Program-made: the position numbers and the translations under genes | Assembly (NCBI RefSeq): GCF_009806575.1 | Contig: NZ_CP047095.1 | Location: 2,174,001 to 2,238,000, forward strand | Length of the DNA: 64,000 bases | Direction: 5' to 3' | Source of the DNA: Rossellomorea marisflavi | GTDB taxonomy: Bacteria > Bacillota > Bacilli > Bacillales > Bacillaceae_B | Notes under the pieces: generated by a model | Seen by the model: the letters and a program-made list of their open reading frames with translations, nothing else | What the model was told of the DNA's origin: nothing | The model's database searches: none | Shown here: positions 17,539-19,043 of the stretch, piece after piece | How positions within the stretch are numbered: the first letter of the stretch is position 1 | Layout of the letters: each line of letters opens with the position of its first letter

Positions 17539-17567
17539 TTGCCTGATGATTCACATTGTGCTATTAT
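17539..17567 (+). promoter_or_regulatory. sigma-A promoter of the hisS leader
   Basis: TTGCCT (17539-17544), exactly 17 bp, then TATTAT (17562-17567). Transcription would start near 17574, only a few bases before the leader-peptide SD GAGGTG (17579-17584). Confidence 0.7.
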
Positions 17568-17590
17568 TGTGAAAATTCGAGGTGTTTCTT

Positions 17591-17635
17591 ATGAATTTAT
17601 TCATTCAGACACAATCCCATCATCATATCAAGTAG
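17591..17635 (+). CDS. putative histidine leader peptide
   Basis: A 14-codon ORF, MNLFIQTQSHHHIK then TAG, contains three consecutive His codons at 17618-17626. GAGGTG is 6 nt upstream of the ATG, an excellent SD, and a promoter is placed so that the mRNA begins at the SD. A 7-bp hairpin starts at the stop codon and a terminator follows before hisS. The layout is that of a classical amino-acid leader peptide: ribosomes stalling at His codons when charged tRNA-His is scarce would change downstream folding. The role is inferred from the sequence; Firmicutes normally use T-boxes for this purpose. Confidence 0.65.
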   Translation: MNLFIQTQSHHHIK

Positions 17636-17724
17636 CCTTGCTGGTTGTTTTTAAAATCAGGAAGGCTATTACCTAATGAACCGCATCTGACTCTAGTCTC
17701 TACTTAGATCAGCTGCGGTTTTTT
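17633..17724 (+). promoter_or_regulatory. hisS attenuator: pause hairpin and terminator
   Basis: The first hairpin pairs TAGCCTT (17633-17639) with AAGGCTA (17662-17668), extended by CTGG/TCAG. The terminator pairs AACCGCA plus CTGA (17679-17690) with TCAG plus TGCGGTT (17709-17720) and runs into T residues to 17724. A stalled ribosome at the His codons would cover the first hairpin's 5' arm. TGGTT (17642-17646) could then pair with AACCG (17679-17683) and weaken the terminator; that pairing is short and only a suggestion. A canonical T-box sequence is not present. Confidence 0.6.
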
Positions 17725-17769
17725 GTGTTCTGGATAAGGGGCCTTTGAATTGAAAAGGAGGATGACATA

Positions 17770-19043
17770 ATGAGAAAGATGGATTATCAGAATGTAAGAG
17801 GAACAGCAGATTATTTGCCTGAAGCTGAAGGGATCCGAAGAAAGGTGAGGAATACACTGGAAGACGTATTCATACAATACGGCTGCAAACCGTTAGAAAC
17901 GCCGATACTCAATTATTCGGATCTGTTGGCCTCCAAATATGGGGGTGGGGCGGAAATCCTGAAAGAGATGTACATGCTGAGCGATCGTGGAGAACGCGAT
18001 CTTGCCCTGCGTTATGACTTAACCATCCCTTATGCGAAGGTAGTGGCCATGAACCCAACGTTGAAAATGCCGTTTAAACGCTATGAAATCGGTAAAGTGT
18101 TCAGAGACGGGCCAATCAAAAAAGGCAGGATGAGGGAGTTTACTCAGTGTGATGTAGACGTAACAGGTATCGATTCATGTGCAGCGGAAGCAGAGCTTAT
18201 CATGATGGCACTGGATGCGTTCGACCGCTTGGAAATGGAAGTGGTCATCCAGTACAATAACCGGAAGCTGCTTGCAGGCATGCTGGAATTCTTCGGCATC
18301 CCTCCTGAGAAAAGTGGGGAAGTGATCCTCGTCCTGGATAAATTGGAGAAGATCGGCCTGGAAGCATGTGAAGAGGAACTGAAGAAAAAAGGACTTAGTG
18401 TCGTAGCATTAAAAGAAACAAAGCAGTTCATCTTGGATTCCCCCACTTGCTTGGAGTACTTTTCACCCTATATAGAAAAAAACACATTGATCTCTGAGGG
18501 GCTGGAGGAACTGAAAGAGCTAGAGCAAATCCTTGAAGGTTTGGGATTGAAAGCTCAGTGCCAATTCAATCCATACCTTGCCAGGGGACTGGACATTTAT
18601 ACGGGTACCATCTATGAACTCTTCCTGAAGGACGGCGGCCTGCGGTCGAGCATCGGAAGCGGCGGTCGCTATAATAATGCCATTGCCGGATTGAAAGGGG
18701 AGGAGGAGGGATCCTATTCAACTGTAGGAATCTCCTTCGGTTTGGACGTCATTTTGACAGCCCTTTTGGAAAAGGAAGAAACCACCCCGAACCTTGGGTG
18801 GATTACTTGATCATTCCGGTCCAAGAAATGGAAGAATCCTTTCGGATGGCACGGGTTCTCAGGCAAGAGGGGAACAGGGTCGAAGTGGACATGTCTGGAA
18901 GATCCGTAAGAAAAAGCATGGACTATGCCGATAAGGCAGGGATCCCGTTTGTAGCGGTGATTGGAGAAAGGGAGGTTTCAAACCGGATATGCATGGTAAA
19001 GGATATGAAAACGGGTAAGCAGACAGAATGGGTTTTCAAATGA
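17770..19043 (+). pseudogene. hisS: histidyl-tRNA synthetase paralogue, one-base frameshift
   Basis: A class II aminoacyl-tRNA synthetase of about 424 residues once repaired. Visible parts: motif 2 YEIGKVFRDGPIKKGRMREF, the His-binding segment LARGLDIYTGTIYE, motif 3 IGSGGRYNNAI, and a C-terminal anticodon-binding domain from VDYLIIPVQ to the end. Catalytic signatures are kept, so it looks like a real HisRS and not HisZ. The first frame stops at 18808-18810 after TTPNLGWIT; the anticodon domain is one frame back. A single missing base near the CCCC at 18785-18788 would join them (reading TTPEPWVDYLIIP). Regulated by the leader described above. It is probably a second copy, as the main Bacillus hisS lies next to aspS. 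Confidence 0.8.

Follow-up and report, generated by a model that had tools for sequence, protein, structure and literature searches.

A histidine-codon leader with a stop-codon hairpin before a second histidyl-tRNA synthetase gene of Rossellomorea marisflavi, and its glutamine-recoded counterpart

The leader and the synthetase gene at the locus

The window, that is the whole stretch of DNA analysed here (64,000 nucleotides of Rossellomorea marisflavi contig NZ_CP047095.1, from position 2,174,001), carries a second histidyl-tRNA synthetase gene (hisS2, product HisRS2) behind a compact leader. The features of this leader and of the gene that follows are, in window coordinates:

17539..17567, + strand: predicted sigma-A promoter TTGCCT-17-TATTAT, with TG before the -10 (promoter scan)
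17579..17584, + strand: Shine-Dalgarno sequence GAGGTG of the leader ORF, read from the sequence; similar sites precede the leader ORFs of relatives
17591..17635, + strand: leader ORF MNLFIQTQSHHHIK-stop, 14 codons, ATG at 17591 and stop codon TAG at 17633 (sequence)
17618..17626, + strand: control codons CAT CAT CAT (sequence), with a His or Gln run in 50/50 strong model matches outside the genus
17633..17668, + strand: hairpin 1, the putative sensor hairpin, starting at the leader stop codon (folding, covariation)
17669..17677, + strand: short linker of 9 nt between hairpin 1 and the terminator (sequence)
17678..17724, + strand: predicted intrinsic terminator GAACCGCA...TGCGGTTTTTT (folding, covariation in relatives)
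17770..18810, + strand: catalytic part (346 aa) of the second histidyl-tRNA synthetase, PRK12420 type, in a frame that ends early
18798..19043, + strand: ORF with the HisRS anticodon-binding domain, 81 aa, in a different frame from the catalytic part

The preliminary description of this DNA had reported a promoter with 17-bp spacing, a 14-codon ORF with a good Shine-Dalgarno sequence and three His codons, and each of these was found again in its place. Folding likewise recovered the hairpin that it had drawn from the stop codon and the terminator that it had set 45 nt before hisS, the distance that separates the T-run from the hisS ATG at 17770. Both hairpins fold at -18.6 kcal/mol (z -4.2 for hairpin 1, z -4.9 for the terminator), and from the leader ATG to the terminator the fold reaches z -6.4, with equally stable shuffles in 0 of 200. 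The promoter is one of three promoter-like sites in the 451 bases scanned, where shuffles expect 0.9. A simple terminator scan listed no site at 17678-17724, perhaps because of the stem mismatches and the loop; a terminator between the leader ORF and hisS is supported by the fold and by the alignment of relatives. The leader-peptide layout is confirmed, chance being very unlikely because the leader is conserved in relatives.

The Rfam scan of the window found no family at gathering score, T-box RF00230 included, and this covariance check bears out the earlier remark that no canonical T-box sequence is seen in the leader. The Rfam His_leader model (RF00514) matches at 17617-17728 over its full length but at chance level, its 13.2 bits (E 8.9) lying well below the gathering score of 49.

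That the leader stands before a second HisRS gene, as had been proposed, is confirmed by a further hisS in the genome at 2976706-2977659, whose product is 29% identical to HisRS2. A T-box match at 2977754-2977977 precedes this primary hisS. The genome also has a third HisRS-like gene at 3627044, presumed to be hisZ, with no ORF containing adjacent His codons in the 500 nt upstream. With 30 T-box matches elsewhere in the genome (22 of them above the cut-off), the genome is rich in T-boxes alongside its leader peptide; one of the matches (2172612-2172862) lies about 1.1 kb before the window.

HisRS2 itself (17770-19043) is split across two frames just upstream of the anticodon-binding domain. 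Two relatives (L034 and L035, 95% and 93% identical) have it as a single frame of 424 aa, so that the split may reflect a damaged gene or an assembly error. Other irregular copies were seen in further genomes. In G034 (L037), hisS2 is interrupted by an in-frame TAG, G410 has two broken copies, each behind its own leader (L090 and L125/L339), and in G181 (L116) a decayed remnant lies downstream of the leader. HisRS2 of P0031, P0101 and L150 is only about 395 aa long, and the anticodon-binding Pfam domain is absent from the domain listing of the first two.

Conservation of the leader and its recoding to glutamine

The family sample comprised 36 genomes, all of one genus, with HisRS2 called at E<=1e-80. 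The gene occurs in 23 of them, each time behind a leader that starts with ATG and has HHH a little ahead of its stop codon; in one (L041) this leader lies about 200 nt further upstream than in the others. A covariance model, R1, was trained on 22 of the 23 leaders, taking only the part that begins at the stop codon, and is thus blind to the codons of the peptide. On the genome studied here R1 returns the leader at E 1e-13 and three other sites at E 3.1-9.1, which were taken as chance.

Across the order, R1 matches 65 of 397 genomes (E<=0.01). Outside the genus there are 53 matches at this threshold, of which 50 reach E<=1e-5, a tally that excludes 14 same-genus rows and the second matches of G410 (minus strand), G181 (second site) and G185 (minus strand), all with E > 0.006; His leaders found with another model, R2, in the family of G237 and in the class are not among the 50. 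At least two consecutive His codons (48 matches) or a Gln run (2) stand upstream in 50 of 50, counted in whichever ORF ending at most 12 nt from the R1 start had the longest run of His or Gln. In 47 of the 50 the leader ORF ends exactly at that start, and runs as short as two codons occur only in L068, L117 and L126. The gene downstream encodes HisRS2 in 47 cases (one a decayed remnant), GlnRS in two and neither in one, while the three weaker matches (E<=0.01, not 1e-5) have neither codon run nor synthetase. Seen from the gene, hisS2 is present in 60 of the 397 genomes and has an R1 leader in 58; a 59th (G301) carries a diverged HHH leader, and the hisS2 of G234 shows no leader in the 420 nt upstream. 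A well conserved leader (VQLHHIN; L068/L338, genome G085) also precedes a HAD-like gene; the 12 kb fetched there contain no match to hisS2.

Among the last ten leader codons of the R1 matches, histidine is written CAT 124 times and CAC 19 times, and the use of both codons indicates that the amino acid is kept rather than the exact bases. A codon-blind pattern scan of named genomes gave at least 120 stretches. Among the matches listed, a leader with a run of His codons is present in 43 of 120 (Cytobacillus, Halobacillus, Shouchella, Peribacillus and Pullulanibacillus provide examples), and none of these 120 has a run of any amino acid other than His.

In the class, HisRS of this type was found in 22 of 309 genomes, our own included (E<=1e-55). 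Eighteen of these 22 loci were examined, leaving aside the window itself, G589, G666 and one partial gene: a run of at least two His codons is present in 15, HYYH (by eye) in two and HFH in one. Compact leaders of further families of the class read HHHIH, HVHQH and HHHHH. Departures from the general plan are the HVHQH of L132 and the ORF of L160, which runs 9 nt beyond the hairpin start.

The run of His codons, the hairpin and the terminator are thus conserved in relatives, as the preliminary description had anticipated. Its expectation that the peptide would be free outside the run stands for the N-terminal part, which varies, but not wholly next to the run: in 73 of the 81 leaders with an in-frame His run, a Gln is found two codons upstream of it (SQLHHH, TQFHHH, VQLHHH). 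The same spacing is seen in a Gln form of the leader, LQLQQQN.

This Gln form was found in seven genomes, two by R1, three more weakly by R2 and two, degenerate, by a filter and by reading the sequence. Each of the seven leaders precedes a methyltransferase-like gene and glnS, and none of the seven genomes is among the 60 with hisS2; the operon so equipped occurs in Alkalicoccus and Paenalkalicoccus. One of these leaders, L164, departs from the plan with QFQLQ, in which no two Gln are adjacent. Applied to 20 glnS upstream regions (from 152 genomes with GlnRS; 14 of the 20 were also read as sequence), the Gln leader filter returned only two Alkalicoccus, a far-off match in L207 being taken as chance. 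The codon run therefore matches the downstream synthetase, His with HisRS and Gln with GlnRS. Such a natural swap resembles a ready-made codon-replacement experiment, and backs the sensing of an amino acid by the codons more directly than conservation alone. The Gln leader was not found in the literature searched (open-licence papers) and appears new within it. The glnS gene of Shewanella is listed as having a synthetase leader, with no mention of Gln codons in the portion of that source available to us (PMC2659441).

The two hairpins and their possible mode of action

In an alignment of 45 diverse leaders, 97.1% of the cells are paired in the two-hairpin structure, and slid versions of this structure drop to 37-57%. 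Double-sided changes affect 13 of its 20 pairs, against 6.2 in shuffles, and 6 of the 9 pairs in the main helix of hairpin 1; hairpin 1 and the terminator both covary. The third base of the stop codon is paired within hairpin 1, TAG going with CTA and TAA with TTA. A G.G mismatch and the elements TTGCTA / TAGGAAG of hairpin 1 are kept in most of the 45 leaders.

In the compact form, closed hairpin 1 does not overlap the terminator, and neither consensus folding, covariation nor swapped duplexes revealed a mutually exclusive antiterminator overlapping the terminator. RNAalifold, run on combinations of segments from 69-82 distinct leaders (three decayed or odd leaders left out), gave only hairpin 1 and the terminator, plus one weak match of three pairs between the 5' arm of hairpin 1 and a terminator arm, with a probability of 0.24 at most. 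By covariation in 84 leaders (one left out), the seven best complementary pairs all lie within the two hairpins, isolated cross pairs between segments appearing from rank 10 on. Native duplexes of the hairpin-1 3' arm or the linker with the terminator arm were no better than swapped ones (27/82 representatives), and both positive controls beat their swaps (z -8 and -10). Among the 24 tests, two pairings did better than swapped partners: the hairpin-1 5' arm with the linker (z -3.9), an expected result since the linker as cut includes the final bases of hairpin 1 at its start, and the apex of hairpin 1 with the 3' arm of the terminator (p 0.001, without correction for the 24 tests).

Several other devices were considered and set aside. 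Folding 17 leaders with the first 13 nt masked did not produce a classical 2:3 antiterminator. On reading the sequences, the start codon of a second mini-ORF in the linker is not kept; a small hairpin within the 3' arm is missing from the Gln forms, and base pairing between the His codons and the terminator arm is not kept. A hairpin hiding the hisS start was rejected, pairing with the 34 nt after the terminator being no better than in swapped controls.

More distant relatives suggest a fuller switch. The leader of G301 (VHHHRN) keeps TAACCTTG at its stop codon and has an extra middle segment. When it is folded alone, hairpin 1 is closed and the middle segment pairs with the terminator 5' arm. 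Masking of the first 13 nt, which imitates a ribosome at the stop codon, shifts the middle segment to an upstream partner and leaves the terminator able to form. G301 is thus predicted to fold as a four-segment switch working in the expected direction. Its family provided no close relative with the same leader, such a HisRS occurring in two of 19 genomes, the other one with the compact form. Twelve distant leaders were folded as single-sequence minimum free energy structures, G301 included and L350 misparsed, and in most of them the start of the stop codon and that of the first hairpin are 0-7 nt apart, the hairpin being the later of the two. In several of these folds, closing of the first hairpin frees a middle segment for pairing with the 5' arm of the terminator. 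Masking cut the upstream pairing of the terminator arm in seven of the 12 and left it in four (L343, L357, L361 and L362). These modelled folds are suggestive of one direction, a closed first hairpin going with read-through, and we infer that the compact form studied here shares it.

Regulation by a leader peptide is well supported by the comparison of genomes, and we consider it probable that the ORF, the stop-codon hairpin and the terminator form a ribosome-sensing attenuator which would turn hisS2 on when charged tRNA-His is scarce. If His-tRNA is plentiful, the ribosome would proceed to the stop codon and pull hairpin 1 open, and the terminator would halt transcription. In a shortage, a ribosome stalled on the His codons, just before the hairpin, would leave hairpin 1 closed, and transcription would continue past the terminator. 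With the A site at the first His codon, the ribosome should leave hairpin 1 free, and at the stop codon it should cover the first dozen bases of hairpin 1, given the usual size of a ribosome footprint. A toeprint of 15-16 nt has been described (PMC6851288). From these positions, which leave or cover hairpin 1, we infer induction by a lack of charged tRNA-His. The relay to the terminator could be hairpin 1 acting directly on the polymerase or the terminator, a pause, or an overlooked pairing. Counting against the attenuator are the broken HisRS2 frame of this genome and the fact that transcription and translation in B. subtilis are held to be largely uncoupled.

A bolder version of the attenuator, which we put forward tentatively and regard as rather doubtful, takes the compact leader as codon-programmable and antiterminator-free, the closed stop-codon hairpin itself signalling read-through and acting without base-pair competition. 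A stalled ribosome would keep the hairpin closed and a terminating one would tear it open, and reprogramming from His to Gln would have come about by a changed codon run and a move to another synthetase operon. An antiterminator-free compact form appears new within the literature searched (open-licence papers). It raises a testable question, namely how a hairpin at the stop codon could decide the fate of a terminator that it does not overlap.

Part of the same evidence can be read differently. Hairpin 1 could be a mere polymerase pause hairpin and the codon run a means of timing ribosome and polymerase relative to each other, in the manner of tlrB; the stalled ribosome would then hinder the terminator directly. 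The sequence TTATTT (17 of 86 leaders) or CTATTT (42 of 86), hence one of the two in 59 of 86, follows hairpin 1 and resembles the NusG pause motif TTNTTT (PMC9226507). The motif is nevertheless absent from 27 of 86 leaders and from the window, which has CTATTA (17666-17672), and the terminator base lies about 45 nt past the stop codon, beyond the reach of a ribosome at the His codons, so that we hold this explanation to be unlikely. Control at a stage later than transcription also seems quite improbable, with a ribosome stalled near the 5' end shielding the mRNA against decay or freeing the hisS start, and with the terminator as a constant leak. The predicted 5' UTR is short, and tlrB of B. 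subtilis joins transcription and translation attenuation (PMC6851288). The terminator is, however, conserved and covarying in the 45 aligned leaders, and duplexes of the 34 nt downstream of the terminator with the hairpin arms, the linker or the terminator arm do not surpass those of swapped partners.

The sequence conservation of TTGCTA / TAGGAAG, beyond what pairing requires, and the failure to find an RNA antiterminator would fit recognition of hairpin 1 by a protein, HisRS2 or another, that governs the terminator, with a secondary part for the codon run. Since the same hairpin plan is used for GlnRS and the codon run is conserved as well as the hairpin, such a protein is very improbable. 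Still fainter is the prospect that the ORF encodes a functional small protein and that the hairpins are its ordinary terminator, to which we give hardly any credence. The ORF is indeed conserved, with a strong Shine-Dalgarno sequence and the Gln two codons before the run in most leaders, but its N-terminal residues differ in sequence and number from leader to leader, whereas the codon run ahead of the stop persists, and Gln replaces His where the downstream synthetase changes.

Comparison with known systems

In Firmicutes, synthetases are controlled mostly by T-boxes, and transcription in B. subtilis is regarded as running ahead of translation; a widespread synthetase leader read by the ribosome is for these reasons unexpected. 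The T-box (RF00230) also puts synthetase genes under the control of charged tRNA, and matches before the primary hisS of this genome, but it binds tRNA directly and has no match at the leader described here. With the proteobacterial his leader (RF00514), the present one shares control codons that would sense charged tRNA. In the proteobacterial leader these codons lie inside the first hairpin region, whereas in the present leader the stop codon marks the beginning of the hairpin. The preliminary description had recognized a proteobacterial his/trp architecture, and this assignment does not simply hold, because no antiterminator competing with the terminator was found and the RF00514 match stays far below its gathering score. 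Control codons sensing charged tRNA also act on a synthetase in the E. coli pheST leader. In the rtpLP leader of the B. subtilis anti-TRAP operon, Trp codons of a leader peptide sense charged tRNA as well; rtpLP differs in exerting translational control of anti-TRAP, with no synthetase terminator. If our reading is right, the leader could be put to use as a small sensor, with three codons setting the amino acid to which it responds.

The His leader of bacilli is already predicted in the work of Naville and Gautheret (2010; PMC2965389), before hisS* and hisZ and with a T-box on hisS, so that a leader peptide on a synthetase of bacilli, which the preliminary description took as new, is not. In the portion of that paper available to us, the system is the same in its short ORF, its His stretch and its terminator before the bacilli-specific hisS paralogue, the primary hisS having the T-box. 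It differs in that its section 10, as available, has no antiterminator analysis and no Gln version, and in the hisZ leader (PMC2965389), which has no counterpart here within 500 nt upstream of the presumed hisZ.

Related leaders are known from other Firmicutes. Attenuators with a His leader were described for the his operons of the B. cereus group, of Peptostreptococcaceae with Lutispora and of Erysipelotrichales (Ashniev et al. 2022, PMC9413887). As far as the available part of the paper goes, they share with ours three to five consecutive His codons just before the attenuator hairpins, and differ in serving biosynthesis operons and in the alternative antiterminators reported for them (PMC9413887). 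The word hisS has 0 occurrences in the main text of PMC9413887, and hisS and glnS have 0 in the available text of PMC11109978 and PMC8632094; the latter presents a cysS leader in Rhodobacterales.

The compact leader can also be compared with tlrB and vmlR of B. subtilis, where ribosomes that stall in a uORF govern a leader terminator, together with NusG-dependent pausing (PMC6851288, PMC9226507). Both systems sense antibiotics and not charged tRNA, according to the available parts of these papers. As for tlrB, no overlapping antiterminator was identified there, which parallels the compact form, and the stalled ribosome is proposed to cover the base of the terminator (PMC6851288).
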